A DNA stretch of 64,000 bases, from NCBI RefSeq assembly GCF_017743975.1, contig NZ_JAGHRC010000005.1, positions 186,001 to 250,000 of the forward strand. Direction: 5' to 3'. The stretch comes from Ruegeria sp. R14_0 (GTDB lineage: Bacteria > Pseudomonadota > Alphaproteobacteria > Rhodobacterales > Rhodobacteraceae). A model generated the notes under the pieces. It was not told where the DNA came from, made no database searches, and was given only the letters and a program-made list of their open reading frames with translations. Of this stretch, positions 42,944 through 62,811 are shown one piece after another. The translations under genes were made by a program, and so were the position numbers. Position 1 is the first letter of the stretch; every line of letters begins with the position of its first letter.

Positions 42944-43044
42944 GGGGCAATCCTCCAATCTTGTACTCAGACTGTAGGATTCGGCGCCGTCGCACCTCAC
43001 TGATTGCGATGTCTGCTTGCAAGAAGCGACACCGGCCCGGAACG

Positions 43045-43072
43045 AAAAACGCCGCCCCAAACGGGACGGCGC
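43045..43072 (-). terminator. Intrinsic terminator of the BCCT transporter gene
   Basis: On the minus strand GCCGTCCC and GGGGCGGC pair across a short loop (GTTT) and are followed by TTTTT. It lies 24 bp past the transporter stop. Confidence 0.9.
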
Positions 43073-43095
43073 GTGGGTTTTTTGGAACCCTGAGT

Positions 43096-44919: not shown

Positions 44920-45478
44920 ATTTCTCCTCCGTGGTGTCGCGTTCTTATTGTAGTTATCTCGGTGACCCTGAAGCCCACCCGTTCAATCCGGGTGAAGACG
45001 ACCAATCCATCGTCAATGGCCCTAAAGTCTGTATTCCTATTGCCTTAAGTTGCGCCCTTGCTGTCGCAAAGTGCGATGGTCCGGCCCATTCTGAGTTGCA
45101 GTGAATTCAACGCAAGAAATTCTCAGGCGATACAAACTCAAACCAACCGGGGATACGTTCCGCACCTCCATAACTTTCCCTTTCGGCCTGTCCCGGCGGC
45201 CAGTTGGTGCGTCGGTTTTGGCAGAACCACCTTGCGGCGTCGGGCGTTTTCACCCAGATATCCTGTCAAACGCAATATTTGTTGCTAAAAACGACTATAG
45301 TGGCGGGCAAGACTAAATTCGGCCAGAACCGACGAATTGACGCAAAATACGACATCGATGGCAAACATAAAGCAAAAAAACATCAAATCTCGCGGCCAGC
45401 TCTGGCTTTCACCTTCAAAAAAAATAAAACTAAGTTTAACAAAACTAAACCAAAGCCGAAAACGATCCATCTGCCGAA
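44920..45478. other. Intergenic region between divergent BCCT and LysR genes
   Basis: A 559-bp region holding promoters in both directions. The right end is AT-rich, with AAAACTAA repeated at 45426-45433 and 45441-45448 (15-bp period), possibly a binding site for the LysR protein. No credible gene was found; short open frames here lack ribosome sites. Confidence 0.5.
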
Positions 45479-46384
45479 ATGTCCAGACGTCACTATAACC
45501 TGCCGCCTCTGACGACCCTATCCGCTTTTGAGGCCGCGGCCCGCCATCTGAGCTTTAAGAACGCTGCCGTAGAGTTGTCCGTTACACCGGGCGCAGTCAG
45601 CCACCAGATCAAAGCGCTTGAAGGCGATCTTGATACGCCTCTGTTTCAACGCAAGCATCGTGGCGTTGACCTGACCGAGGACGGCAAAGCGCTGTACGAG
45701 GCACTGTCTACGTCCTTTGGGCGTATTTCCAAGACACTCAGCCTGATCCGCGACCGGTCCACGGCGGGAAAGGTGACCGTGGGATCGACCACAGCCGTGG
45801 CGGCACTCTGGCTCTCACCGGCCGTCATTCGGTTCTGGCGCGAAATGCCCGAGGTCAACGTCGATCAGCTGTCGCAGGACCGCCCTTTCCGGGATCGTCC
45901 GGACGTCGACTTTTTCATTCGCTACGGTAGAGATAGCGATCCCAATCTGTCGCACACACCACTGTTTCGCGACCATCTTGTCCCGGTCGGCAGCCCAGAG
46001 CTGGCCGACCGACTGGCGGATGCCGATCTTGACGATCTGACGCGTGAGCGGCTGATCCATCTGGATTCCGAGGACCGCAGCTGGACGACCTGGCCCGACT
46101 GGTTCCAGCAGCTTGGGTTCAATGGTACGGTTCCGGTTGAATCCCGCGTCAACAGCTATTCGGTTGCCTTGCAGCTTGCCCGCAAAGGCGCGGGTCTGGC
46201 GTTGGGGTGGCAGCGACTGATTCAACCGATGCTGCAATCGGGCAAACTGGTACCGATCGGCTCTCACCAACTGGCTGCCCCTAACCAGTTCTATCTGGTA
46301 GGTCGCCCCGATGACGAACTGTCCGACAGCGCCCGCGCCCTGAAAGACTGGATCATACAGGAGGTTCAAGAAGGTTCGGTTTAG
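45479..46384 (+). CDS. LysR-family regulator (GcvA-like)
   Basis: A 301-residue LysR protein with LPPLTTLSAFEAAARHLSFKNAAVELSVTPGAVSHQIKALE, the classic GcvA-group DNA-binding domain, and a ligand domain. Ninety-nine bp downstream begins a Rieske oxygenase gene in the same direction, so it likely regulates demethylation genes, comparable to GcvA-type control of glycine cleavage. Confidence 0.9.
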   Translation: MSRRHYNLPPLTTLSAFEAAARHLSFKNAAVELSVTPGAVSHQIKALEGDLDTPLFQRKHRGVDLTEDGKALYEALSTSFGRISKTLSLIRDRSTAGKVTVGSTTAVAALWLSPAVIRFWREMPEVNVDQLSQDRPFRDRPDVDFFIRYGRDSDPNLSHTPLFRDHLVPVGSPELADRLADADLDDLTRERLIHLDSEDRSWTTWPDWFQQLGFNGTVPVESRVNSYSVALQLARKGAGLALGWQRLIQPMLQSGKLVPIGSHQLAAPNQFYLVGRPDDELSDSARALKDWIIQEVQEGSV

Positions 46385-46483
46385 GTGAGGTCACCCACTG
46401 ATGAGCTTTTCTGATATTGAGGCGATCAGATACGATCCGCCAAAAGGAACAAGACGCATCCAGCAAAACCTCAGGAGAGCCCG

Positions 46484-47638
46484 ATGAACAAGCATAGCGC
46501 GCTGTCTTCCGTTCTGGCCGATGTAAACGTTGCAAACGGCCTGCCGAATGAACACTATATCGACCCGGCGGTTTTCGACGAAGAAAAGCGGTCTGTGCTT
46601 TATGCCAACTGGTCCGGGATCGGGTTTGGCAAGGACGTTCCCGAAGAAGGTGATGCCAAACCTGTCGACTTTCTGGGCATGCCTCTGCTGATCGTTCGCG
46701 ACAAGGACGGTGAAGTCGGGGTTTTCCAAAACACCTGCCGTCACCGCGGAATGATTCTGGTAGACACGCCGCGCAAGATCGGCGGCGCGATCCGTTGCCC
46801 CTATCACAGCTGGTGCTACAGCCTGAAAGGCGAACTACGCGCAACCCCGCATGTGGGTGGCCCCGGTCAGAACAAGCATGAGGACGTCAAACGGGAAGAC
46901 CTGGGCCTTATACGCGTGCGTTCGTATGTCTGGCGCGACGTGATCTTTGTGAATGTCGACGGCAACGCACCCGAATTCGAAGAGGTTCACGGTGCCTTGC
47001 TGGAGCGCTGGAAAGAGTTTGAAAAGCCTGTTTTCCATGGCGGCGAGACATCTTCGTTCAAGCTTGAGGTCAAAACCAACTGGAAACTGGCCGTCGAAAA
47101 CTATTGCGAAAGCTACCACCTGCCTTGGGTGCATCCCGGCCTGAACAGCTATTCCCGACTGGAAGATCACTACAACATCGAAGCGCGAGGCCATTACTCT
47201 GGTCAGGGTACGCTGGTCTATCGCCAGCTGACGGACCAGGACGGCGCGACATTCGAGGATTTTGACGGGCTCAGCGACAAGTGGAACGAAGGCGCGGAAT
47301 ACATCGCGGTTTACCCGAACGTTCTGCTGGGTGTTCAGCGGGACCATGCCTTTGCAATTGTGCTGGAACCTGTCGATCAGGAAAACACCGTGGAACACAT
47401 TGAGCTCTACTACGCAAAGAGCGTGGAAGACACGCCGCAGCACGACGGGCTGCGCGCGTCAAACGCTCAGCTGTGGAAAACGGTGTTCGAAGAAGACGTC
47501 TTTGTGGTCGAAGGCATGCAGAAGGGTCGGCACGGGATGTTGTTTGACGGCGGACGATTCTCGCCCGCGATGGACGGACCGACGCACAACTTCCACCATT
47601 GGGTCGCGACGCAGATCGAAAACGGCCGCGCGGAGTAA
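46484..47638 (+). CDS. Rieske non-heme iron oxygenase, large subunit (betaine demethylase-like)
   Basis: A 384-residue ring-hydroxylating-type oxygenase. Rieske ligands CRHRG and CPYHSW are near residues 86 and 106. The mononuclear iron site is NYCESYHLPWVHPG near 205-218, with a bridging acidic residue. It resembles glycine betaine, carnitine and stachydrine demethylases (GbcA, CntA, Stc2 type), which remove N-methyl groups as formaldehyde. No reductase gene is adjacent. A downstream small gene and a GcvT-domain FAD oxidoreductase support an N-demethylation role. Confidence 0.88.
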   Translation: MNKHSALSSVLADVNVANGLPNEHYIDPAVFDEEKRSVLYANWSGIGFGKDVPEEGDAKPVDFLGMPLLIVRDKDGEVGVFQNTCRHRGMILVDTPRKIGGAIRCPYHSWCYSLKGELRATPHVGGPGQNKHEDVKREDLGLIRVRSYVWRDVIFVNVDGNAPEFEEVHGALLERWKEFEKPVFHGGETSSFKLEVKTNWKLAVENYCESYHLPWVHPGLNSYSRLEDHYNIEARGHYSGQGTLVYRQLTDQDGATFEDFDGLSDKWNEGAEYIAVYPNVLLGVQRDHAFAIVLEPVDQENTVEHIELYYAKSVEDTPQHDGLRASNAQLWKTVFEEDVFVVEGMQKGRHGMLFDGGRFSPAMDGPTHNFHHWVATQIENGRAE

Positions 47639-47648
47639 CCCTTTTGGA

Positions 47649-47675
47649 CCGGCCTGTCATGCAATGACGGGCCGG
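47649..47675. other. Perfect hairpin between Rieske and small-protein genes
   Basis: CCGGCCTGTCAT and ATGACGGGCCGG form a 12-bp stem with a three-base loop and one G-U pair. There is no T-run after it, so it may be an RNA-stabilising or processing element rather than a terminator. Confidence 0.5.
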
Positions 47676-47698
47676 ATGCTCGATGCAAGGGGACTCCC

Positions 47699-47938
47699 AT
47701 GGACAAACAGGAACTGGATCGCCTTCTATTGGACGCGCATGATCGAAACGACCGTGCCGACCTGATCCGTTTTTACACCATGGCCGCGGACGAACGTGAG
47801 GCCGCGCAGGATATCGACGCGGCCTGCTTCTATCTAACGCATGCCTTTGTTTTCGCACTGGAATCCGGCGCACTAGAGGCGGACACGCTGAACCAGCGGT
47901 TGGTCGCCCATGGGCGGGCGCACAAGCTGGAATTCTGA
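47699..47938 (+). CDS. 79-aa conserved-looking small protein
   Basis: A helical, acidic protein (LLLDAHDRNDRADLIRFYTMAADERE, then ACFYLTHAFVFALESGALEAD). The motif-like repeats of hydrophobic residues resemble a single TPR-like helix pair. AAGGGG precedes the ATG. It sits between the Rieske gene and the GcvT-domain oxidoreductase and may be an accessory of one of them. I do not recognise a family. Confidence 0.7.
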   Translation: MDKQELDRLLLDAHDRNDRADLIRFYTMAADEREAAQDIDAACFYLTHAFVFALESGALEADTLNQRLVAHGRAHKLEF

Positions 47939-48048
47939 GTTTAGCCTCGGGTTAAAACTGCTCAACCCAACATGAAATTTATGTCCGTTGTCGGTGACGC
48001 CACGATAAGGGCACATGGCCGCGGGACCAACTTTGATACGGCAGGCTC

Positions 48049-50469
48049 ATGAAAACGAAGGCACAGGCGGTGGTGATTGGCGGCGGAGTGATCGGGTGCT
48101 CGATCCTCTATCATTTGACCAAACTGGGATGGTCGGATGTGGTGCTGCTGGAGCGGGATGAGCTGACGTCAGGCTCGACCTGGCACGCAGCGGCGAACAT
48201 CCATGGGCTGCATGACAGCACTAATATCAGCCGCATCCAGCACTATACGATGAACCTGTACAAAGAGCTTGAGGCCGAAACGGGCCAAAGCTGTGGCGTG
48301 TTCCAACCCGGATCACTGTATCTGGCCCAGACGGAAGAGCGTGAGCATCAGCTGAAGCTGCAGGCCGCCAAGGCCAAGCTCTATGGCATGAACTTCTATG
48401 AGGTCAGCATCGAAGAGGCGCAGCGTCTGAACCCACTGGTCAACTATGATGGCATCCGCTGCGTGATGTACGAACCCGACGGTGGCAATGTGGACCCTTC
48501 GGGCGTGACCAATGCCTATGCGGTGGGCGCGCGGCAACGCGGGGCCGAGATCTATCGGTTTACCCCGGTCACCGCGACCGACCAGCAAGAGGACGGCACA
48601 TGGATCGTTCGAACGCCAAAGGGTGACATCCACACCCCTTGGGTCGTGAACGCCGCAGGCCTTTGGGGGCGTGAAGTGGCCAAGCTGGCGGGGATTGAAC
48701 TGCCCCTGCAACCGACCGAGCACCAGTATTTCGTGACCGAAACCATGGCCGATGTCGCAGCACACGGCACCCGCCTGCCCTCGGTCAGTGACCGTGATGG
48801 CGAGTATTACCTGCGCCAGGAAGGTCAGGGCCTGCTGGTTGGGGCCTATGAGAAGGGTATGAAGTTCTGGGCCGAAGAAGGAACGCCTCTGGACTTCGCC
48901 CATGATCTGTTTCCCGACGATCTGGAACGGATCGAAGAGAATATGATGAACGCTATCGAACGCCTGCCCGCCGTGGGTGAGGCCGGGATTAAGCGCGTGA
49001 TCAACGGGCCGATGATCTGGTCACCGGACAGCAACGTTCTGATGGGCCCAGTGCCCGAGGTCGACGGGTATTTCTGCTGCAACGGTATCATCCCCGGTTT
49101 CTCGCAATCCGGCGGCATGGGCCTGATGGCGGCGCAGTGGATCATCGAAGGTGAGACGCAATACGACATGTTCGCGTGGGACATGGCCCGCTTCGACAGT
49201 TGGGCGACCAAGGAATTCACCATGGCCCGTGTGCAGGATCAGTATGCCCACCGGTTCGCCATCCACTTCCCCAACGAAGAACGCAGCGCAGGACGCCCCG
49301 CGCGCACGCGCCCGATTTACCAGACGCAGGCCGCGATGGGTGCCGTATTCGGCCTGAACGCAGGATGGGAGCACCCGTTGTGGTTCGCGGATGCGCCGGA
49401 TGCCACCGACACCAACGGTTTCACGCGCCAGAATTGGTGGGGACCGGTTGGTGAGGAATGCCGCATGCTGCGCGAACGTGCGGGTATCATCGACATCTCA
49501 AACTTCGCGAAATACGTCTGCAAGGGTCCGCAGGCCGAAGAATGGCTGAACGCCGTATTCGCCAACACCATGCCCAAGACGGTTGGGCGATCCTGCCTGA
49601 CACCTCTGATCTCGAAACGCGGAGGCATCGCCGGGGACTTTACTGGGACCCGTGTGGCCGAGGACGAATTCTGGATCATCGGCTCGGGTATGGCCGAGCG
49701 TTATCACAAGCGGTTCTTCAAACAGGTTCCCCTGCCCGAAGGTACGACGTTTGAAAGCCGTACCGAAGCTATGTGCGGGTTCAACATCGCTGGCCCTAAA
49801 TCGAGGGACATTCTGCAGCGCCTGACCAATATTTCGCTTGCCACCGAGGACTTCCCGTTTATGCGCTCGGCCAAAATCGAACTTGCCGGGATCAAGGCGC
49901 TGGCCCTTCGGGTCTCGTTCACAGGTGATCTGGGCTGGGAGGTACACTGCGCGACCGAGGATCAGGCCCGCCTCTATGACGCTTTGATCCAAGCGGGTCG
50001 CGAATTCGGCGCCGGTCCGGTGGGCAGCCGGGCGTTGATGTCCCTGCGCGTCGAAAAAGGTTACGGTTCGTGGAGCCGCGAATACAGCCCCGAATACTGG
50101 CCGCATGAGGTTGGATTGGATCGCTTGTGCAAGTTCGGCAAAGATTTCCTGAACAAAGAAGCCGCCGAAGCAGTCCTGACCAACCCGGCCCGCGAACAGC
50201 TTGTCCTTTTGCATTTGGACGAAAGCGACACCGCTGCTTCAAACGCTGATGCGACTGGTGGCGAGCCGATCTTCAAGGATGGCCACGGGATTGGTCGCGT
50301 GACCTCAGGCGCTTATGGCTATTCGGTCGGCATGTCGCTGGCGCTTGGCTATGTGGCCGGAGCCAAACCCGGCGATACGGTCGAGGTGATGGTCCTTGGG
50401 CGGCCACACAAAGCGACCATCCTGCACGAACCACCCTTTGATCCCAAGGGGGAAATCCTGCGCGGCTGA
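48049..50469 (+). CDS. FAD-dependent oxidoreductase with GcvT domain (dimethylglycine dehydrogenase-like), second copy
   Basis: An 806-residue paralogue of the enzyme at 4.2-6.6 kb. It has VVIGGGVIGCSILYHLTKLGW, TSGSTWHAAANIHG (the covalent-FAD-type His), a central linker domain and a C-terminal GcvT domain with SGAYGYSVGMSLALGYV near the end. Following a Rieske demethylase, it would oxidise the resulting dimethyl or monomethyl amino acid and pass one-carbon units to tetrahydrofolate. Substrate specificity cannot be read. Confidence 0.9.
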   Translation: MKTKAQAVVIGGGVIGCSILYHLTKLGWSDVVLLERDELTSGSTWHAAANIHGLHDSTNISRIQHYTMNLYKELEAETGQSCGVFQPGSLYLAQTEEREHQLKLQAAKAKLYGMNFYEVSIEEAQRLNPLVNYDGIRCVMYEPDGGNVDPSGVTNAYAVGARQRGAEIYRFTPVTATDQQEDGTWIVRTPKGDIHTPWVVNAAGLWGREVAKLAGIELPLQPTEHQYFVTETMADVAAHGTRLPSVSDRDGEYYLRQEGQGLLVGAYEKGMKFWAEEGTPLDFAHDLFPDDLERIEENMMNAIERLPAVGEAGIKRVINGPMIWSPDSNVLMGPVPEVDGYFCCNGIIPGFSQSGGMGLMAAQWIIEGETQYDMFAWDMARFDSWATKEFTMARVQDQYAHRFAIHFPNEERSAGRPARTRPIYQTQAAMGAVFGLNAGWEHPLWFADAPDATDTNGFTRQNWWGPVGEECRMLRERAGIIDISNFAKYVCKGPQAEEWLNAVFANTMPKTVGRSCLTPLISKRGGIAGDFTGTRVAEDEFWIIGSGMAERYHKRFFKQVPLPEGTTFESRTEAMCGFNIAGPKSRDILQRLTNISLATEDFPFMRSAKIELAGIKALALRVSFTGDLGWEVHCATEDQARLYDALIQAGREFGAGPVGSRALMSLRVEKGYGSWSREYSPEYWPHEVGLDRLCKFGKDFLNKEAAEAVLTNPAREQLVLLHLDESDTAASNADATGGEPIFKDGHGIGRVTSGAYGYSVGMSLALGYVAGAKPGDTVEVMVLGRPHKATILHEPPFDPKGEILRG

Positions 50470-52045: not shown

Positions 52046-53020
52046 ATGACCACATTCCTCGTTATCGTCCTGCTGGTCGCCGGGTTCTTTGTCGGTATGA
52101 ACCTGTGGACCCGAAGACTGACCAAACAAGGGCTAGAGCGCGTCCCGCAACTTGGCCAGATCGTGCCCGTCCAGGGCGGTCGTATCCACTATGTTGAAAA
52201 GGGTGATCCGTCCAAGCAGTCCATTGTCATGATCCACGGGCTTGCGGGACAGTTGCAGCATTTCACCTATGCTATCATGGATCTATTGGCTGACGACTAC
52301 CACGTTATTGCGGTGGACCGGCCCGGTTGCGGCTATTCCACACGAGATACCGCCGATTTGGGTCAACTGCCCGAACAGGCACGCATGATTCAGGAGTTTC
52401 TGGATACCAAAGGCATCACCAATGCCGTTCTGGTCGGCCATTCTCTTGGCGGGGCGGTATCCTTGGCCATGGCGCTGGATGACCCGGAAAAGACAAAGGC
52501 GCTCGCACTGCTGGCACCTTTGACCCAAAAACTGCCTGAGACTCCGCAGGTGTTCAAACCGCTTGAAATCCGCACCGAATGGCTGCGTGGCTTTATTGGC
52601 AACACGATTGCGGTGCCAATTTCAGCCAAAACCGCCCCACACGCGCTGAGCGCTGTATTTGACCCGGAACAACCGCCCAAAGATTTTCTGGACCGCGCAG
52701 GCGGAGCCTTGGGCCTGCGTCCTTCAGCCTTCATCACAGCATCACAGGACGTTGTCGGAGTGGATGCCAGCATCGCAGCGCAGGTTTCACGCTATGGCGA
52801 CCTCTCTGTGCCCGGAGGTATCCTGTATGGCGCGCAAGACGCGATCCTGTCCCCATCTGCAAATGGTGACCCGATGACCAGGTTCGGGCTGAGCAACGAA
52901 AAAATCGAGGGCTTGGGACATATGATCCCCATCACCGCACCGGACGCATGCGCCGCCTTTATCCGCAGAATGGCCGAGCACGCAGGAACCACCCCCAATT
53001 CCGCGACCAAGACGGTCTGA
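52046..53020 (+). CDS. Membrane-anchored alpha/beta hydrolase
   Basis: A 324-residue hydrolase with an N-terminal membrane helix (residues 3-22) and an alpha/beta-hydrolase fold: oxyanion IHGLAGQ, Ser nucleophile in VGHSLGGA, Asp in YGAQDAILSP, His in GLGHMIP. Coupled to the monooxygenase gene, it likely cleaves its ester product. A longer frame (from 51974) overlaps that gene and lacks a ribosome site. Confidence 0.88.
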   Translation: MTTFLVIVLLVAGFFVGMNLWTRRLTKQGLERVPQLGQIVPVQGGRIHYVEKGDPSKQSIVMIHGLAGQLQHFTYAIMDLLADDYHVIAVDRPGCGYSTRDTADLGQLPEQARMIQEFLDTKGITNAVLVGHSLGGAVSLAMALDDPEKTKALALLAPLTQKLPETPQVFKPLEIRTEWLRGFIGNTIAVPISAKTAPHALSAVFDPEQPPKDFLDRAGGALGLRPSAFITASQDVVGVDASIAAQVSRYGDLSVPGGILYGAQDAILSPSANGDPMTRFGLSNEKIEGLGHMIPITAPDACAAFIRRMAEHAGTTPNSATKTV

Positions 53021-53104
53021 GCGAAGGATGAAAATAATCCTGCTTTGCGGGTGTTTTCCCCCTTGACCCTCTCGGGCCCCTCGCTTAAATCGCCTCTCAC
53101 TCAT

Positions 53105-53181
53105 GGCGGAGTAGCTCAGTTGGTTAGAGCAGCGGAATCATAATCCGCGTGTCGGGGGTTCAAGTCCCTCCTCCGCTACCA
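53105..53181 (+). tRNA. tRNA-Met (CAT)
   Basis: 77 nt with encoded CCA. Acceptor GGCGGAG/CTCCGCT with a terminal G-U pair; anticodon stem GCGGA/TCCGC and loop ATCATAA, anticodon CAT; T loop TTCAAGT. The sequence resembles elongator tRNA-Met of alphaproteobacteria. tRNA-Ile with lysidine cannot be fully excluded. Confidence 0.93.
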
Positions 53182-53298
53182 AAATCCCAGCCTTACAGAC
53201 AAAAATCCCTGCGCCGGCATTCGTCTGCATAAGTGCATGCCTCAGCGATCTTTGGAAACATGCCGACCAGTTCGTACCTCAGGTAAATGGGCGGCGAT

Positions 53299-54195
53299 TC
53301 AACGTGGCAGGCCAGCCTCTTCTACGATCCAATCCCTGAAAGCCTTCAGCTGCGGATGATCCAAGGCACCTTTCGGATAGACAAGATGGTACGACCTTGA
53401 CGGGGTGAAGTCGTCTGAAAATGGCTGTATCAATTGCCCTGACTGCAATTCACCCTCAATCAACGGCAACAGCCCAAGTGAAGCGCCCTGCCCCGACATC
53501 ACTGCTCGGAGCAAAACACTGGAATCGTCAATGACGACTCCAGGAAGATGGCCACCGGTATCGACGCCATGTGCCTCGAACCATTCCAGCCAGTCGAACT
53601 GATCTTTCCAATGCAGCAGCGGTAGGTTTAACAGGTCTGCGGGATCGGCCAGAGACGACTTGCCCGCCAACATAGTCCGAGCAATGACCGGAGAGGTTCG
53701 GAACCGAAGCAGCCCTTCGGATACCAAACCGGGCCAACGACCGTCGCCCCAAGCCAGCATCATATCGGTCGAACCGTCCGAAAATTCCACTCCGCCGGGG
53801 CTGTATTGCAGGTGCAACCCGGTCTCTGGAAACCTTTGCCAAAAGCTGAACAGCCGCCTCGATAACCATTGCGAGCCGATGAGCGCGCCAACCCCAACCG
53901 TGATCGACGTTCGATTGGCGGTCTGGCGCACGTCCTGCACCGCCTTGTCCAGCCGCGCGAAGATTGTTTCGCAGGCTTCCGCGAATTGGTGTCCGGCTTC
54001 ATTCAACGTCACCGATTGGGCATTTCGATCGAACAGCGCACATCCCAGATGGGCTTCTAGCGACTTCACCTGTGAACTGACGGCCGTCGGCGTCACGCCC
54101 AGCTCAGCCGCGGCACGCTTGAAGTTTCCCAAACGGGCTGCAACAGCAAAAACACGGACCGCCCCAAGCGGTGGTGGATGCATGTGGTCGGTCAT
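53299..54195 (-). CDS. LysR-family regulator
   Basis: A 298-residue GcvA-like LysR protein (LGAVRVFAVAARLGNFKRAAAELGVTPTAVSSQVKSLE). The ATG at 54195 was preferred to a TTG one codon earlier. It is divergent from the Rieske-led operon by 116 bp and is its probable regulator. TATGCATA at 54241-54248 lies in the shared region. Confidence 0.9.
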   Translation of the reverse strand: MTDHMHPPPLGAVRVFAVAARLGNFKRAAAELGVTPTAVSSQVKSLEAHLGCALFDRNAQSVTLNEAGHQFAEACETIFARLDKAVQDVRQTANRTSITVGVGALIGSQWLSRRLFSFWQRFPETGLHLQYSPGGVEFSDGSTDMMLAWGDGRWPGLVSEGLLRFRTSPVIARTMLAGKSSLADPADLLNLPLLHWKDQFDWLEWFEAHGVDTGGHLPGVVIDDSSVLLRAVMSGQGASLGLLPLIEGELQSGQLIQPFSDDFTPSRSYHLVYPKGALDHPQLKAFRDWIVEEAGLPR

Positions 54196-54311
54196 CAATA
54201 GGCTAACTTCAAATTACCCTAGGCTCGAAAATTCTTAACCTATGCATAACCATCAGAGCAAGGCAGACTAACGCTTGGCAGCAACCAAAACGCGACCTTG
54301 TGGGGGAACCG

Positions 54312-55403
54312 ATGCCACGTGATACACCTTTGCAGGCCCAGTACTACACCCAGCCGGATTGGTTCGAGGTCGACAAGGAAAAGATCTTCTTTCGCACTTG
54401 GCAATGCGTGTGCCACGTGTCCGAAATTGCCGACCCGGGCGACTTCAAAACGTTCACAATCGTTGACGAGGATATCTTTGTCATTCGCGAGCCGGATGGC
54501 GGCATCAATGCGTTTTACAACATCTGCCGCCACCGCGGTCACCCGCTGGTCGAGGGAACCGGCAAAGGCAGAAGAGTACTGGTTTGCCCCTATCATGCAT
54601 GGACTTACGAGATTAACGGGCGGTTGCGGCGCGCGCCGGGCTCGGTCAAAAGCGACGGGCTGACCTGCGATCAGATCAACTTGCGCAAGATCAAGGTCGA
54701 GGAATTCTGTGGCTTTGTCTTTGTCAATATGGATGAGAACGCCAGCGCTATGGCCCCCGATCTGGAAGACTACCGGCAAAACCTGCTGAGCTTTCACCCC
54801 GACCCGACCCAACTGAAGTTTGTTTGCGAGACCGAGATTGCACATGACAGCAACTGGAAGCTCTCGGTCGAGAATTACAATGAATGCTACCACTGCCCCA
54901 CAGTACACGCGAGCTCGCTGACGCATGGCGTTCTTGAGATGGACGGGTACACCACCGTTCCGCACGGCAAGACCATCTGGCATGATGGAAAGGCGCAAAC
55001 GAAGAACGAAAGGCAATATGATTACGACCTGACGTCCAGCCCGCGCGCGGATGACTACGGTGCCTACTGGATCTTTCCCAATGTCTCGATGTGCTGCTAT
55101 CCCGGAGGATATTTCACCATCCGACAGTTCCTGCCTGTTGCCTGGAACAAGACGATCTATCGTTATCGCTGGTTCTCGAGCGGTGATATCGCGGACCAGG
55201 ATGTGATCGCCCTGATGCACAAACACAAGGAAACCACGGGGGCCGAGGATGAGGTCGTCGTATCGAAGATCCAGAAAGGGATGCAAAGCCGCGCATTCGA
55301 GCCCGGACCGTATGTTATCGGTGACGGATGCGGCGCGATGAGCGAGGTAGGTCTGCGCCATTTCCACAATCTCTATCGTGATGCGTTGGGAGAGGCAGGA
55401 TGA
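54312..55403 (+). CDS. Rieske non-heme iron oxygenase, second copy
   Basis: A 363-residue oxygenase with Rieske ligands CRHRG and CPYHAW and a mononuclear iron site NYNECYHCPTVH. It belongs to the same broad family as the protein at 46.5 kb but is clearly different. The ATG at 54312 follows GGGGGA. No reductase is adjacent. It leads an operon of five overlapping genes. The substrate could be a quaternary amine or an aromatic acid. Confidence 0.87.
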   Translation: MPRDTPLQAQYYTQPDWFEVDKEKIFFRTWQCVCHVSEIADPGDFKTFTIVDEDIFVIREPDGGINAFYNICRHRGHPLVEGTGKGRRVLVCPYHAWTYEINGRLRRAPGSVKSDGLTCDQINLRKIKVEEFCGFVFVNMDENASAMAPDLEDYRQNLLSFHPDPTQLKFVCETEIAHDSNWKLSVENYNECYHCPTVHASSLTHGVLEMDGYTTVPHGKTIWHDGKAQTKNERQYDYDLTSSPRADDYGAYWIFPNVSMCCYPGGYFTIRQFLPVAWNKTIYRYRWFSSGDIADQDVIALMHKHKETTGAEDEVVVSKIQKGMQSRAFEPGPYVIGDGCGAMSEVGLRHFHNLYRDALGEAG

Positions 55404-56128
55404 GTGACGTGATCCGTCAGGACCTGGCCGCGCTTTATCGTCTTGCCCATCACTACGGCTGGACTGATCTCACCTCGACCCATATATCAGCGCGTCTGCC
55501 AGATGATCCTGACCATTATCTGTTGAACTCGCACGACTTAATGTTTGACGAAATCACGGCCTCGAACCTGACGCGTATGTCTTTAGAAGGACGCGCGGTG
55601 GATGACAGGCCGGGCAGCGGCAAGATCGTCAACCTGGCTGGGCATATCATCCATTCCGGCATCCTTTCCGCGCGGCCTGACGTGAACTACGTCATCCACA
55701 GCCATACCCGTGCAGGTGTCGCTGTTTCCGCGATGCCCAATGGATTGTTGCCGCTGTCCCAGCATGCGGGGTTTGTGTTGGGCACTCTGTCGAGCCATCC
55801 GTATCAGGATTCTACCGCAGTCGAGGATGAAGGCGGGCTTCTGGCCCGCGACTTGGGCGACAACTTCGCGATGCTGCTCCAAAACCACGGCTTGCTTGTG
55901 GTCGGACGCACGGCGGCCGAAGCGTTCATCTACCATTATTACCTTGAGATGGCGTGTAAAATTCAGGTCGACATCCTTGCCGCCACCGACAACCCGATCC
56001 GAATAACCGAAGATACGATGAGCGCCTTGCACGATTGGGGATCCCCGGCAAACGGACCGCATGGCGGCGTCCAGTGGCCTGCGTTGATCCGGATGCTTGA
56101 CCGGACGGCGGCGGAGTATCGGTCATGA
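55400..56128 (+). CDS. Class II aldolase/adducin family protein
   Basis: A 242-residue zinc-dependent aldolase-like protein. Metal-binding His appear in IHSHTRAG (HxH) and QNHGLLVVG. Family members cleave sugar-like phosphates, decarboxylate or act on hydroxy-acids. The ATG overlaps the Rieske stop (ATGA). What it does in this operon is not clear. Confidence 0.85.
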   Translation: MSDVIRQDLAALYRLAHHYGWTDLTSTHISARLPDDPDHYLLNSHDLMFDEITASNLTRMSLEGRAVDDRPGSGKIVNLAGHIIHSGILSARPDVNYVIHSHTRAGVAVSAMPNGLLPLSQHAGFVLGTLSSHPYQDSTAVEDEGGLLARDLGDNFAMLLQNHGLLVVGRTAAEAFIYHYYLEMACKIQVDILAATDNPIRITEDTMSALHDWGSPANGPHGGVQWPALIRMLDRTAAEYRS

Positions 56129-56772
56129 GTGATGATGATCTGATCCTGACCAAAACAGAAGGTACCTGCCTTACGGTCACCATCAACCGACCCCAAAAGG
56201 CAAACTCGCTGACGCCTGAGATGCTGGTCGCTCTGAGCGGTATTTTTCAGGACGCTGCCCATAGTGACCAACTGCGCGCCGTAATAATAACCGGCGCGGG
56301 CGAGCGCGTGTTTTGTGCGGGCGCGGACCTGAACACGCTTTATGCAGAAACGGACGGCCCGGACCTCTGGCAGGAAATGGCGCAGGCGCTGCACGCGATT
56401 CCGGTGATGACTCTGGCCGCGATCAATGGACCGTGTATGGGGGGCGGACTGACGTTGGCCTTGGGATGCGATATCCGGTTTTGCGTCCCCCAATCCCGGT
56501 TTTCTTATCCGGTGCTCAAGAACAACGTGATGCCCGGCCAGTATGACGTGGACCGGCTGCAAGGGCTTGTCGGTCCGGGACGCGCCGCTGCAATCCTGTT
56601 GGGAGGCAACACGATCAGTGCACAGGATGCCTTCGCATGGGGTCTGGCAGACTACTTAGTTGAAAACGACGCGCTTGAGGCAGCGTGTCTTGACTTGTGC
56701 GCAACCGCGCTGGAAGCCAGCGGGGTGCATCTGAAAGCGCTGAAAGCCATGCTGGGAAGGAATGAACGATGA
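56125..56772 (+). CDS. Crotonase-fold protein, atypical active site
   Basis: A 215-residue enoyl-CoA hydratase/isomerase superfamily protein, shorter than the usual 255-260. The CoA and oxyanion regions are present (FCAGADLNTL; INGPCMGGGLTLALGCD). The two Glu residues used by classical hydratases (GGGCE and PE positions) are replaced by Thr and Val, so simple hydration is unlikely. It overlaps both neighbours by four bases, including the CoA-transferase, so a CoA ester is surely involved. Confidence 0.84.
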   Translation: MSDDDLILTKTEGTCLTVTINRPQKANSLTPEMLVALSGIFQDAAHSDQLRAVIITGAGERVFCAGADLNTLYAETDGPDLWQEMAQALHAIPVMTLAAINGPCMGGGLTLALGCDIRFCVPQSRFSYPVLKNNVMPGQYDVDRLQGLVGPGRAAAILLGGNTISAQDAFAWGLADYLVENDALEAACLDLCATALEASGVHLKALKAMLGRNER

Positions 56773-57920
56773 AAGGTATCCGCGTCGTCGACATGACGTC
56801 TGTCTTGTCCGGCCCCTTCTGCACCTGGCTGTTGGCTAGTATGGGTGCCGACGTCATCAAAGTGGAAAACCCGGCTGGAGATCTCGCCCGCACCACGCCG
56901 CCGTTTGAAGACGACATCAGCCTCTATTTTGCCTCTCTGAACAGAAACAAGCGCTCGGTCAGGCTGGACCTTAAAACCGATCAAGGAAAAGAGGCACTGC
57001 ATAAACTGCTGGCAACGGCAGACGTATTCGTCGAGAACATGCGCCCGGGTGTGCGCGACCGGCTTGGATGCAGCGATACCGATCTGAAACGGATCAACCC
57101 GCGCCTCGTCTCTGCCTCAATCAGCGGGTTTGGCCAGACGGGCAGCCTTTCGCACCGTCCCGCCTATGACATCGTAGTGCAGGCCATGAGCGGTATGATG
57201 AGCATCAATGGTGAGTTGGACGGTCAGCCGACGCGCGTCGGGTTTTCGGTCGGCGACATCTCGGCCGCTTTGTTCACCACAATCGGCATTCTTCAGCGCC
57301 TGTACGAACGCGACGCCAAAGGGGTGGCCGAGACCAGCCATCTGGACGTGTCCATGCTGGCCTGTCAGTGGGTGTGTCTGGAAAACGCCTTTGCCCGCTA
57401 CCTGAATGCAGGGATCGTGCCGGGGCCAATCGGCTCGCGCCACCCGTCCATGACACCCTTCGAGCCCTACCCAACGGCAGACCGGGATATTGTCATCGGT
57501 CTGGGCAGCGACAAAGACTGGCCGCGGTTCTGCGAGGCCATCGGGTATAAAGAGCTATTGGATGACCCACGGTTTCAGGGTGACGAGGCGCGGCTGGCCA
57601 ATCGTGACGCACTGGACGAAGTGCTGGGCGCGCATTTGAAACAACACACGGCAGCCCACTGGATTCAGATACTGATCGACAATGCCATTCCCTGCTCGAT
57701 GGTGGAAAACATCCAGACCATCGCGGAAAACCCCATTTCCGATGAATACGCCGCGTTTTCGACGGTAAATGCAAACGGTCGCGACATGCGATTTGCCCGC
57801 AACCCAATCGCCGACCGCACCCACCGGGAAAGCGCCGCACCAGAGCTTGGCCAACATACCCGAGAGGTTCTGGCCGAACTTGGCTATGACGCTCAGGCCA
57901 TCGCAGCCTTGACCCGCTAA
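56769..57920 (+). CDS. Type III CoA-transferase (CaiB/BaiF family)
   Basis: A 383-residue CoA-transferase beginning KGIRVVDMTSVLSGPFCTWLLASMGADVIKVE. The catalytic Asp lies in ETSHLDVSMLACQ near residue 193. Relatives include carnitine, formyl and succinyl CoA-transferases. It would activate a carboxylic acid for the crotonase-fold protein. Operon-coupled by ATGA. Confidence 0.9.
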   Translation: MKGIRVVDMTSVLSGPFCTWLLASMGADVIKVENPAGDLARTTPPFEDDISLYFASLNRNKRSVRLDLKTDQGKEALHKLLATADVFVENMRPGVRDRLGCSDTDLKRINPRLVSASISGFGQTGSLSHRPAYDIVVQAMSGMMSINGELDGQPTRVGFSVGDISAALFTTIGILQRLYERDAKGVAETSHLDVSMLACQWVCLENAFARYLNAGIVPGPIGSRHPSMTPFEPYPTADRDIVIGLGSDKDWPRFCEAIGYKELLDDPRFQGDEARLANRDALDEVLGAHLKQHTAAHWIQILIDNAIPCSMVENIQTIAENPISDEYAAFSTVNANGRDMRFARNPIADRTHRESAAPELGQHTREVLAELGYDAQAIAALTR

Positions 57921-57953
57921 CGACAACCTCTTGCGACCCCGACAGGACATCAA

Positions 57954-58778
57954 ATGGCCGAATTCCAGACCGCCGACGGCATCACGCTGTTTTACGAGGA
58001 AACAGGGACAGGTGAGCCGATTGTTTTCGTGCACGAATTCGGCGGCGATTACCGCAGCTGGCATCGCCAAATTCCGGTTCTGTCGCAATCCTTTCGCTGT
58101 ATTTCCTACTGCGCACGCGGTTTTCTGCCCTCGGCAGTTCCTTCGGATCGCGATCAATACGGGCAGCGCCAGTCCACGGACGATCTTCTGGTATTGATAG
58201 ACCATCTTGGTCTTGAGACCGCGCACTTTGTAGGCGCTTCAATGGGCAGCTTCACCAGCTTGGATTTTTCATTGAACTATCCGGACCGGGTCGCAAGCCT
58301 GACCTTGGTGGGCAACAGCTCGGGCCCGCGCGATCAGGCCGAACAAGCGAGCTATCGCAGCAACTGGGTCGGGCACGAAATCCGGTTGCGCGAGGAGCGC
58401 GGCGGAGATGGCGCGGTTGAAGTTCTTGAAGATGACCCGGCTTATCAGTCTTTCATAAAGAACGACCCTGAGGGATGGGCAGTTTATGCCAGCAATCTGC
58501 GTGGGCAATCAGCCGAAGGTGCAACGCATGTCCTGTCGACCTTACACTGGAACCGGCGCTCGCTGTTTGATGACACAGCGCGGCTTAAGGCGTTTGAAAA
58601 ACCAGTTATGCTGGTGACCGGAGACGACGATTACTACTTGGTCGCGGAAACGAACGCCTTTTTGCAAGAAACACTTCCCAATGTCAGATGGCACCGTTTT
58701 CCCGCCACCGGCCATCTGGTCAACATTGAACGCGCCGAGGAGTTCAACCGCCGGTTACTTGCGTTTGCCAGTGCGTAG
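57954..58778 (+). CDS. Alpha/beta hydrolase
   Basis: A 274-residue soluble hydrolase: oxyanion HEFGGDY, Ser nucleophile in GASMGSF near residue 98, Asp in VTGDDDYY and His in ATGHLVNIE. It follows the CoA-transferase by 33 bp and is probably the last gene of the operon. It may cleave a thioester, ester or C-C bond (3-oxoadipate lactonase and related hydrolases are similar). Confidence 0.87.
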   Translation: MAEFQTADGITLFYEETGTGEPIVFVHEFGGDYRSWHRQIPVLSQSFRCISYCARGFLPSAVPSDRDQYGQRQSTDDLLVLIDHLGLETAHFVGASMGSFTSLDFSLNYPDRVASLTLVGNSSGPRDQAEQASYRSNWVGHEIRLREERGGDGAVEVLEDDPAYQSFIKNDPEGWAVYASNLRGQSAEGATHVLSTLHWNRRSLFDDTARLKAFEKPVMLVTGDDDYYLVAETNAFLQETLPNVRWHRFPATGHLVNIERAEEFNRRLLAFASA

Positions 58779-58968
58779 CGTAAATCAGTTGCGTCGTCGC
58801 ATCCTCCCGTAAGGGCGGACTGAAACAACGCCTGCAGGTCATTGGGACCAAAGAAGCTTGTGGTCAGGGCATGGGCCTTTACGCATTTGCGTTAACAATA
58901 TCCAAATTTTGCTGACAATTTGAGCAAGACGGCTGACAGGTGCCGCAAATTTCTAAAATTTTTCATTG

Positions 58969-58984
58969 CCGAAACCGGTTTCGG
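58969..58984. promoter_or_regulatory. LacI-type operator of the sugar transport operon
   Basis: CCGAAACCGGTTTCGG is a perfect 16-bp palindrome with the central CG of LacI-family operators. It lies 16 bp before the LacI-type regulator start, so the regulator likely represses its own operon including the transporter. Confidence 0.82.
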
Positions 58985-59000
58985 AACAAACAAATATTAC

Positions 59001-60161
59001 ATGATGACGAATCCAAGACCGCAAAAGCGACAATCGCCGCTTCGGCAACCCCCGGTTTCGGGGCGCGTTAAGTTGGATCAGCTTGCGGATATTCTTGGGC
59101 TTTCTAAAAGCACTGTTTCGCGCGCGCTAAACGGGTATTCGGACATTTCGGACACCACCAGAAAACGGGTCGAAGCGACCGCGCGAAAGATGGGGTATCG
59201 CCCTCTCAGCCATGCGCAGGCCATCCGAACCGGCCGGGTCCGCGCGATTGCGATGGTCATCAACAGCTGGGAACCGGACCGGAACAACCCGTTCCTTCAG
59301 GACTTCCTGGCGGGTGCCTGCGAGGCCGCAAGCGCCTCTGACTGGACAATGACAATCTCGACCGCAAAATCCGAAAAGGACATGCTGGACGTACTTGGGC
59401 GATTGGTCGAAGAGCGCAAGGCAGACGGGTTCATCCTGCCCCGGACTGAGGTCGACGATGCACGCATCCACTATCTGCGAGAATTGAAAGTTCCCTTCAT
59501 CCTTTATGGCCGCACTGGATACGGCGAAACGGATCCACAGGACGATATCTCGTGGTTTGATATCTCGGGCGAGGCGGCGACCCACAATGCCGTTACGCGC
59601 CTTGCCCATTTTGGGCACCACCGCATCGCGTATATCGGCAGCGATCCCAAGTTCAACTATAGCCGCCTGCGCCGCGATGGGTACTTGCAGGGGCTGCAGG
59701 CTGCAGGTCTGACGATGGACCCGGATCTGGTGCGCGACGGCGCGCGAACACGCGAGGAAGGCGCGGCCGAAGCCCAGGCCTTGATGCAATTGCCCAACCC
59801 ACCAACGGCAATTGTCTGTGCCACGGACCTGGCGGCCTTAGGATGCTATCCCGTCTGCGCCGAGCTGGGTTTGGAGATCGGGCACGATGTGTCTATCGTG
59901 GGATACGACGGCATTCCCGAATGCCAATATGTCAATCCAGGCCTAACAACATTCAGCGTGGATTCGCGACGCGCAGGAGAGCGCCTGGCCACACTGCTGA
60001 TCCGTCAGACCCGAGGCGAAGAACCCGCAACCCTGCGCGAACTAAGCGATGCCGTGCTGATCGCGCGCGAATCCGACGGGCCGCCGCGGCTGACACCCGA
60101 GGCACTGACGCGAAAAATCAACCAATCCAACGATCATAACCGGGGAGGAAACCGACTATGA
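59001..60161 (+). CDS. LacI-family regulator of the sugar ABC transporter
   Basis: A 386-residue regulator, longer than usual because of a disordered N-terminal tail of about 20 residues before the helix-turn-helix (KLDQLADILGLSKSTVSRALNGYSD). Its effector domain ends with ...VSIVGYDGIPECQYVNPGLTTFSVD. Related regulators (AglR type) sense alpha-glucosides. ATG at 59001 was chosen over a frame open to 58920. Overlaps the binding-protein gene by ATGA. Confidence 0.9.
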   Translation: MMTNPRPQKRQSPLRQPPVSGRVKLDQLADILGLSKSTVSRALNGYSDISDTTRKRVEATARKMGYRPLSHAQAIRTGRVRAIAMVINSWEPDRNNPFLQDFLAGACEAASASDWTMTISTAKSEKDMLDVLGRLVEERKADGFILPRTEVDDARIHYLRELKVPFILYGRTGYGETDPQDDISWFDISGEAATHNAVTRLAHFGHHRIAYIGSDPKFNYSRLRRDGYLQGLQAAGLTMDPDLVRDGARTREEGAAEAQALMQLPNPPTAIVCATDLAALGCYPVCAELGLEIGHDVSIVGYDGIPECQYVNPGLTTFSVDSRRAGERLATLLIRQTRGEEPATLRELSDAVLIARESDGPPRLTPEALTRKINQSNDHNRGGNRL

Positions 60162-61578: not shown

Positions 61579-62811
61579 ATGACTTCGGCCTCCCCACCGA
61601 CCGGAACTGGGGCGTTAGCCAAACGCGAAGCGCGTCTGGCCTGGACGCTGCTGGCTCCGACCATCATAAGCGTGTCGCTGGTTGTGATCTTGCCCCTGTT
61701 GGCGATCTTCTGGATCAGCTTCAAACCCTTCACCCTGTCCGACCTGCGCCCGCCGGCCCCGGTTGTACGTGAGAGCTTGCGAGGATCTGGCGACGATCTG
61801 CGGATCGAATACCGCCTGCGCAACTCCAGCCAGGAAATCGCCGTTGACGGCGTGACACTGACCGATGTCCTGCCGGACGGCGTCACCGCCGGTGAGATCA
61901 TCGAGCCCTGTGTGCTGGACGGGCAAGAGCTGTTCTGCGACTTCGGGACTTTGGAAGGCGGTCAACGCGAGCGCATACGGGTTCCCGTAACTGTCGACGG
62001 CGACCCAGACGCATTCGAAGATGCAGTGGAAGGGTCCGAACCGCGTGTGACCGGCAGCGGGTCCAGCGTTCTGACCAACTTTGAGTTCAGCCTTGAAAAC
62101 TATGCCCGCGTGTTTGACGGGGATGAGTTCTGGGGCGTTCTCTGGGTCACGCTGTTTTACACAGTCTTCGGCACGATCGGCGCGCTGGTCATGGGCTTGT
62201 TCGCCGCGCTGCTTCTGAACAAAAGTTTCAGGGGGCAGGGAATTATTCGCGGCCTCTACCTGTTTCCTTACGTGGCCCCCGTGATCGCCGTAGCGTTTAC
62301 TTGGGTAACGCTGTTCGATCCCTTCTCGGGCTCCGCCAACGCATTGCTTGTACAGATGGGCCTGAGCAGTGAGCCGATCAACTTCTTCGGCGAGCGCCCT
62401 CTGGCGCTGATCATGGTCACCGTGTTTGAAATCTGGCGGTATTTCCCTCTGTCTTTCCTGTTCATTCTGGCGCGAATGCAATCCATCGATAGCAGCATGT
62501 ACGAGGCGGCGGATATGGACGGGGCCTCGCCGTTCCAGAAGTTCTGGCTGCTGAGCATACCGCAATTGCTGGGCATCCTGTCGGTGCTGTTCCTGCTGCG
62601 CTTTATCTGGACGTTCAACAAGTTCGACGACATCTTCCTGCTGACCGGCGGCAACGCGGGCACGCGCACGCTGACCGTGAATGTCTATGAACAGGCCTTT
62701 GCAATCTCGAACATCGGTGCAGGTGCGGCCGTCGCCGTCGTCATCCTGATGTGCCTGATCGCCTTCAGCTTCGTCTTCTTCCGCTTCATCAGCCGCGAGG
62801 AGGGTCTGTGA
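61579..62811 (+). CDS. Sugar ABC transporter permease (MalF-like) with DUF11-like periplasmic insert
   Basis: A 410-residue permease. The first membrane helix is residues 21-48; about residues 60-160 form an Asp/Gly-rich insert with VTLTDVLPDGVTAGEI and CDFGTLEGGQRERIRVPVTV, the hallmark of DUF11-type beta-sandwich domains; then come the remaining helices and an EAA loop (YEAADMDGASPFQKFWLLSIPQL). E. coli MalF also has a large periplasmic loop, but of a different type. Stop and next start overlap (TGATG). Confidence 0.9.
   Translation: MTSASPPTGTGALAKREARLAWTLLAPTIISVSLVVILPLLAIFWISFKPFTLSDLRPPAPVVRESLRGSGDDLRIEYRLRNSSQEIAVDGVTLTDVLPDGVTAGEIIEPCVLDGQELFCDFGTLEGGQRERIRVPVTVDGDPDAFEDAVEGSEPRVTGSGSSVLTNFEFSLENYARVFDGDEFWGVLWVTLFYTVFGTIGALVMGLFAALLLNKSFRGQGIIRGLYLFPYVAPVIAVAFTWVTLFDPFSGSANALLVQMGLSSEPINFFGERPLALIMVTVFEIWRYFPLSFLFILARMQSIDSSMYEAADMDGASPFQKFWLLSIPQLLGILSVLFLLRFIWTFNKFDDIFLLTGGNAGTRTLTVNVYEQAFAISNIGAGAAVAVVILMCLIAFSFVFFRFISREEGL

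Follow-up and report, generated by a model that had tools for sequence, protein, structure and literature searches.

A LysR-linked five-gene cassette in Ruegeria and related Rhodobacteraceae with a group Va-type Rieske oxygenase, putatively for a betaine-type compound

Group V Rieske oxygenases act on quaternary ammonium substrates and carry a CxxC pair and a bridging Glu, and are divided into groups Va and Vb by the presence of an aromatic residue or an Asn, respectively, at position 203, according to the available parts of two papers (PMC7948474, PMC10952381). Here we describe a cassette with an oxygenase of this kind in Ruegeria sp. R14_0, within a stretch of 64,000 nucleotides (positions 186,001 to 250,000 of contig NZ_JAGHRC010000005.1; hereafter the window). 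Its five genes encode, in order, a Rieske oxygenase, a class II aldolase-fold protein, a short crotonase-fold protein, a class III CoA-transferase and an alpha/beta hydrolase, and a LysR-type regulator gene is located divergently beside them. We read it as a catabolic cassette under LysR control that serves to degrade a betaine-type compound (a quaternary ammonium carboxylate, or perhaps a sulfonium), in which C-N cleavage by the Rieske oxygenase would come first, and we put the probability of this reading at about 0.5.

Several described systems share parts of this gene set. The anaerobic cai operon has proteins of the same CoA-transferase and crotonase superfamilies (CaiB and CaiD), and an earlier note on this DNA, made without database searches, drew an analogy with it. 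However, the analogy fails: the cassette CoA-transferase is nearer to YfdE (38% identity) than to CaiB (28%), the crotonase-fold protein lacks both CaiD Glu residues, three distant cassette copies do without it, and the cai region of E. coli is without a Rieske gene. The same note regarded a Rieske oxygenase as foreign to carnitine metabolism, a view that fails because CntA, the carnitine monooxygenase, belongs to the Rieske oxygenases, as the available part of one paper states (PMC7948474), and is the nearest solved relative of the protein described here. YfdE, an acetyl-CoA:oxalate CoA-transferase, shares the catalytic Asp with the cassette protein, but E. coli yfdE is grouped with oxalyl-CoA decarboxylase. 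The auxin iad pathway is ruled out, because its Rieske oxygenase IadDE is an alpha3-beta3 enzyme with a beta subunit (PMC12633357, available part) and the cassette encodes none.

A literature search for the gene set or its parts, with most subscription journals outside its coverage, gave no description of the cassette, in agreement with the earlier note, whose author knew of no pathway with this set. The enzyme families are known, and it is their combination that is new relative to the literature searched. No close homologue from a carnitine or aromatic route was found either, the closest solved protein being CntA and the identity to E. coli YeaW being 32%. For homarine, a further candidate, the search gave no gene cluster for comparison.

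Operon layout, regulator and distribution

All five genes lie on the forward strand in the order first proposed, and the family labels first given to them agree with Pfam (Rieske with Ring_hydroxyl_A, Aldolase_II, ECH_1, CoA_transf_3 and Abhydrolase_1). The Rieske gene (54312..55403, with the ATG at 54312 preferred over a longer GTG start at 54300), the aldolase-fold gene (55400..56128), the crotonase-fold gene (56125..56772, encoding 215 aa) and the CoA-transferase gene (56769..57920) overlap one another successively by 4 bp (55400–55403, 56125–56128 and 56769–56772), and a gap of 33 bp (57921–57953) precedes the hydrolase gene (57954..58778). The compact overlaps claimed in the earlier note are thus present, but its count of four out of five junctions is not, as five genes have four junctions, comprising three overlaps and one gap. 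The five genes form an operon. In 12 other Rhodobacterales loci the corresponding junctions, measured using the N-termini of the window's proteins, span −4 to +14, −7 to −4, −4 to +2 and 21 to 35 bp, and because these spacings recur even though synonymous divergence (dS) from the window exceeds 1 for each gene in every locus tested, the nearest relative (L023) excepted, the layout is not a matter of chance. A chance neighbourhood was also rejected because order and overlap layout are repeated in 12/12 of these loci, 11 of which have flanks unlike those of the window. The five genes behave as a single unit, as expected from the suggestion that they form one pathway.

The earlier description of the operon's content stands for the five genes but missed a divergent GcvA-like LysR-type regulator gene (53299..54198, reverse strand; Pfam HTH_1 and LysR_substrate), whose product scores 245.6 bits against PRK11139, below the cut-off of 288. 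All 12 of the other Rhodobacterales loci have the regulator gene in divergent orientation, at 73–92% identity; in L032 it is broken into two pieces. An operator-like site, TTACCCTAGG (54214..54223, no strand), is located between the LysR gene and the operon and follows the pattern TTAYCCYAGR, which occurs just upstream of LysR in the window and in 12/12 distinct Rhodobacterales loci (L023–L034), and in none of L035–L038. Each relative locus has a single copy of the pattern, and the window has one further copy at 51398. A longer operator pattern has one occurrence in the 4.66-Mb genome at up to one mismatch; as a reversed control pattern also matches once, a single genomic site is at chance level, and the weight of the putative operator comes from its conservation across loci. 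This genome-wide regulon search yielded no second site, and therefore no unlinked transporter or reductase is assignable by it. We conclude that the LysR gene belongs with the cassette, as its putative dedicated regulator.

Relatives were identified by one scan of a contig collection (84,980 species) with the Rieske protein, which gave 500 relatives, the best 80 loci of which were kept. The Rieske proteins of 16 loci (L023–L038) are 65–95% identical to that of the window, and since identity then falls to 43% and 41% in the next best, the orthologous group is sharp-edged; among named relatives, those nearest belong to Ruegeria. L022 exactly duplicates part of L031 and is not counted as a separate locus, and the stop reported for its genome (G178) sits directly before the start codon. 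The full order of LysR, Rieske, aldolase, crotonase, CoA-transferase and hydrolase genes is present in 12 of the 16 loci, with carriers in Ruegeria, Leisingera, Shimia, Tropicibacter and Pelagimonas and in two Rhodobacteraceae metagenome-assembled genomes (MAGs). Single defects occur in two of these loci: the aldolase gene of Ruegeria sp. HKCCD7303 (L024, 11086–11815) is split by a frameshift that is either an assembly error or a broken gene, and a Pelagimonas MAG (L032, 8963–11101) has an in-frame stop near the Rieske start as well as the split LysR gene. Over the 16 loci the aldolase gene is found in all 16, the CoA-transferase gene in 15, the hydrolase gene in 14 and the crotonase gene in 12. 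The crotonase gene is missing from L035 (an alphaproteobacterial MAG), L037 (a short contig that was assigned to Binatia, perhaps by misbinning) and L038 (a gammaproteobacterial MAG), where the aldolase and CoA-transferase genes are separated by 3, 141 and 83 bp, respectively; L035 also is without the hydrolase gene, and L036, a 7.5-kb MAG contig, has the Rieske–aldolase pair only.

Whole genomes seldom carry the cassette: counting the window's own genome each time, it occurs in 6 of the 54 genomes from the genus, in 2 of the 394 sampled across the family and in 1 of the 398 sampled across the phylum. Of 289 genomes from the class, three, the window's own among them, match the aldolase-fold protein at E 1e-60; the other two matches share 52–53% identity and lie outside such a cassette, next to a small EthD-like protein and an aminotransferase by eye. 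At E 1e-50, 29 plasmid records were matched, all below 60% identity, and viral contigs gave one CoA-transferase relative, at 36% identity. Compared with L023, the ratio of nonsynonymous to synonymous substitution (dN/dS) is 0.05–0.06 for the LysR, Rieske, aldolase, CoA-transferase and hydrolase genes and 0.20 for the crotonase gene, which gives 0.10–0.21 against ten relatives with finite dS. These values, together with an open reading frame in 13/13 crotonase copies, reject pure decay; the crotonase gene is kept, yet is under looser selection and evolves faster than its neighbours.

Comparison of the cassette proteins with described enzymes

The Rieske protein is a group Va-type oxygenase with a single, alpha-only subunit, and its closest solved relative is CntA (5e-59). 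Residue states were compared in 16 orthologues (the window and 15 loci, L032 being dropped because of its in-frame stop) and several features are shared by all of them. First, the bridging Glu (CntA Glu205) is present as Glu191, and the CxxC pair beside the mononuclear iron as Cys192 and Cys195 (CntA Cys206 and Cys209). Secondly, the 2-His-1-carboxylate iron site is formed by His194, His199 and Asp313. Thirdly, the residue at CntA position 203 is Tyr189, the mark of group Va; GbcA, a group Vb enzyme, shares the CxxC pair and bridging Glu, but its family controls have Asn at this position (9/9). To judge from these residues, the Rieske protein is not of the aromatic-ring type and bears every tested sequence hallmark of group Va.

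The pocket differs from those of the described enzymes. At CntA positions 258/270/295/315/319 the cassette orthologues have Y/C/Y/H/T (16/16), as compared to F/N/Y/Y/F in CntA and YeaW and Y/Q/R/D/T in a related large clade (63 rows), and positions 270 and 315 set the cassette apart from the CntA/YeaW, GbcA and large-clade groups; CntA Y225 was omitted because its partner residue differed between two alignments. The large clade comprises 64 group Va-like loci (L039–L102, of which L093 is too short for residue comparison) that are 33–43% identical to the cassette protein and likewise have Tyr at 203, but their Q/R/D pocket is invariant (63/63 rows) and, in the loci read by eye, their neighbours seem to be an RpiR regulator and a DMGDH-like gene rather than the cassette. 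In a quick tree of 55 of 102 rows, with every fourth row of the large clade included, the cassette orthologues form one clade (SH-aLRT 97). The cassette differs further from the CntA/YeaW systems in its downstream genes and in having no linked reductase. The protein probably acts on a betaine-type compound, with a substrate specificity of its own.

The aldolase-fold protein passes the cut-off of subfamily PRK07044 (248.7 vs 207 bits) and retains the three metal-binding His residues of FucA, as His100, His102 and His163. However, the catalytic Glu73 of FucA is replaced by Gly81, and N29, T43, G44, S71 and S72 are all replaced in 16/16 rows with a residue (the frameshifted L024 is a gap at most positions); G132 is replaced too, and Y113 has no counterpart. 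This loss of catalytic and phosphate-site residues argues against a sugar aldolase. A structural model (18 sequences, pLDDT 79.7) matches 3ocr first and adducin next by both Foldseek and VIA-align, so that the PRK07044/3ocr group is closest in fold as well as sequence, although 3ocr is titled merely as an aldolase II superfamily protein and adducin is not an enzyme. In Foldseek these are followed by TqaM, 4xxf (titled aldolase), 2z7b, pyruvic oxime dioxygenase (POD) and NovR, all ahead of E. coli FucA; by their PDB titles TqaM and NovR are non-haem iron enzymes. POD, an Fe(II) enzyme of the class II aldolase fold, similarly keeps the three His residues and none of those other FucA residues, as far as the available part of its description goes (PMC5216522), but identity to POD, NovR and TqaM is 24–32% over the aligned core, and their substrates are unrelated. 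The protein is probably not an aldolase, and these features point to a metal-dependent enzyme that cleaves C-C bonds or oxidises, with iron the probable metal by analogy to POD, NovR and TqaM.

The remaining proteins also depart from their named relatives. In 13/13 copies of the crotonase-fold protein, Glu111 and Glu131 of CaiD correspond to Thr110 and Val130, and with both catalytic Glu residues lost it cannot be a standard enoyl-CoA hydratase; it has no match in L035–L038 (L036 being a short contig) and was seen in Rhodobacterales loci only. Its structural model (pLDDT 48.3) was set aside. For these genes, both aldolase and enoyl-CoA hydratase are probably misnomers. The CoA-transferase (CoA_transf_3, 381 bits) has the catalytic Asp163 (Frc D169) in 16/16 sequences and is 32% identical to Frc, and it scores below the equivalog cut-offs for both YfdE (280.6 vs 522 bits) and CaiB (137.1 vs 413 bits). 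The families it matches best, all below cut-off, use oxalate, glutarate and mesaconate, pointing to a small dicarboxylate as the acceptor. The hydrolase has a GASMG nucleophile motif, read from its sequence, and is far below the cut-off for the 3-oxoadipate enol-lactonase PcaD (87.9 vs 255.85 bits).

Putative route, substrate and alternatives

The findings above cover the gene order, conservation and rarity of the cassette, its regulator and site, and the residue states and clade of its proteins; the chemistry below is inferred. In the first step, as the group Va hallmarks suggest, the Rieske oxygenase would bind the cationic head of the substrate through a pi-cation contact with Tyr189 and hydroxylate the adjacent carbon using O2 and electrons from an unlinked reductase, whereupon the C-N bond would break to give a tertiary amine and an aldehyde or 2-oxo acid. 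Secondly, the residues and fold of the aldolase-fold enzyme, with a three-His metal site that would probably hold iron as in POD, NovR and TqaM and no aldolase acid/base, are consistent with its cutting or decarboxylating the Rieske product. Thirdly, the YfdE-like CoA-transferase may put CoA on the small carboxylate so formed, and the alpha/beta hydrolase may split an ester, lactone or thioester along the route; the crotonase-fold protein would be a Rhodobacterales extra.

Ruegeria and their kin turn over much of the marine methylated amine and sulfur osmolytes, many of which, to our knowledge, have no assigned genes. A narrower and tentative proposal is that the cassette encodes a hitherto undescribed aerobic route for degrading an osmolyte of the sea, betaine or sulfonium, with a group Va Rieske oxygenase of new specificity that possibly breaks a C-N (or C-S) bond; another non-haem iron enzyme, from the otherwise uncharacterised PRK07044/3ocr group, would then cut the product. 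With its Rieske clade with a pocket of its own, putative dedicated regulator and operator-like site, the cassette is a small and testable target, and it gives a functional setting to an aldolase-fold group whose solved members found were 3ocr, an unassigned structure, and adducin.

Several observations weigh against a betaine-type substrate, the assignment of which is drawn from sequence. First, the best NCBIfam match of the Rieske protein is the group Vb enzyme GbcA, with 172.8 bits and a cut-off of 670. Secondly, Tyr at position 203 is not exclusive, with six Rieske paralogues of this genome having Tyr (three), Phe, Ala and Gly (one each), and the CxxC pair is present in only two of the six; the second Rieske protein encoded in the window has the equivalents of Tyr203 and Glu205 without the CxxC pair (ENYCESYHL). 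Thirdly, the tree leaves the sister branch of the cassette clade unresolved and warns of long branches. For the aldolase-fold model, VIA-align gives near ties among 4xxf (25.1), NovR (25.1), TqaM (24.0), POD (23.9), the aldolase 6btd (23.8) and FucA (23.5), so that iron enzymes and true aldolases are not told apart by fold and the iron reading is one of analogy. There is also no CntB-type reductase within the cassette. At E 1e-20 the genome has a single YeaX-like match (C22:277461-278387), which lies about 36 kb beyond the Rieske gene, on its downstream side, as part of a 1078-residue open frame; in the 818 residues of this frame that were scanned, Fer2 and 4Fe-4S domains exceed their cut-offs and a DmmA-like domain falls just short of its own.

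The flanking genes add little in favour of betaines. Upstream in the window, at a distance of 4–13 kb, there are genes for MttB, a BCCT transporter and a DMGDH-like protein as well as a further LysR–Rieske pair, but these are shared at >95% only with L023, which has the window's upstream flank and whose sequence ends inside the BCCT gene. BCCT or MttB relatives occur in the available flanks of 4/16 loci, as found by tblastn with the window's proteins in L023, L025 and L028 and, in L036, by a Pfam scan made for that locus. The genome has 12 MttB and four BCCT places, and with about 200 kb of flank a hand estimate gives less than one locus by chance; as an after-the-fact count by uneven methods the association is only a hint, and with 4/16 flanks and this number of places genome-wide the link to betaine genes is weak. 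Parts of TRAP transporters (4–5 loci) and aldehyde dehydrogenases (5) are the commonest flanking families and yet are inconsistent among 17 flanks, and because the commonest families outside L023 reach only 4–5 of 17 loci, the flanks are mostly unshared.

Among the alternatives, degradation of an aromatic or heteroaromatic acid would require ring hydroxylation, an aldolase-fold decarboxylase (cf. 3,4-dihydroxyphthalate decarboxylase), a PcaD-like hydrolase and a 3-oxoadipate-type CoA-transferase. The pyridine dicarboxylate decarboxylase 2z7b is a structural neighbour of the aldolase-fold model (Z 23.0), and there are weak family scores to HcaE (109 bits), PhtC (43) and PcaD (88). However, none of these scores comes near its cut-off, a beta subunit, ferredoxin, dihydrodiol dehydrogenase and ring-cleavage enzyme are all missing from the cassette, and the combination of bridging Glu, CxxC and Tyr203 is the group Va pattern, so that we consider this route unlikely. 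Degradation of carnitine or gamma-butyrobetaine proper, with a Rieske protein isofunctional with CntA and the other genes handling malic or succinic semialdehyde and CoA esters, could draw on the relationship to CntA, the conserved equivalents of Tyr203 and Tyr295 and the BCCT transporter 10 kb upstream, but it is made quite unlikely by the replacement of CntA pocket residues N270, Y315 and F319 by Cys, His and Thr in 16/16 orthologues, the lack of a linked CntB, a CoA-transferase that is not CaiB-like and a crotonase-fold protein without the CaiD Glu pair.

The Rhodobacterales genera that make up most of the carriers are marine. Our own conjecture of a sulfonium analogue, similar to dimethylsulfoniopropionate (DMSP) or gonyol, supposes that the cation pocket binds a sulfonium and that C-S cleavage frees dimethyl sulfide. 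The carriers, mostly Rhodobacterales, would suit it, as would, in L035, a DMSP_lyase-family cupin gene located 6 kb downstream and, in L026, a methylmalonate-semialdehyde dehydrogenase gene about 2.4 kb beyond LysR, but the cupin gene is in one locus only and within a separate gene group, and no other DMSP genes were recognised near the cassette, with no search aimed at them made; we think it improbable. Equally improbable is a betaine of the imidazole or amino-acid kind, for example hercynine, attacked by the Rieske enzyme at the alpha carbon to give a 2-oxo acid that a NovR/TqaM-like enzyme decarboxylates. In its favour, NovR and TqaM are non-haem iron enzymes with the aldolase fold, and true hutH, hutF and hutI genes (over cut-off) and an MttB fragment lie directly upstream of the Rieske–aldolase pair in L036 (1–4775); against it, this is a feature of 1/16 loci, on a 7.5-kb contig without a CoA-transferase gene, and hut genes are those of ordinary histidine catabolism.

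Neighbouring genes and minor features

In the window the upstream genes named above occupy 41396–50469, in the order MttB and BCCT transporter (both on the reverse strand), LysR, second Rieske and a DMGDH-like FAD/GcvT protein. The region downstream of the cassette in L035 (5474–10333) encodes a family 5 solute-binding protein, a crotonase, an acyl-CoA ligase and the DMSP_lyase-family cupin. Across 53000–59100 a scan for promoters and terminators gave a single promoter-like site against 2.6 expected, located past the operon at 58892. Terminator-like sites numbered 11 against 6.7 expected, and the last gene is followed by none on the forward strand. Past 58778 another unit begins, with a LacI regulator (Pfam) and two ABC permease genes. 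In an ABC permease encoded at 61579–62811, BPD_transp_1 is matched only from residue 203 of 410, and by eye about 100 extra residues, free of Pfam matches, precede it.

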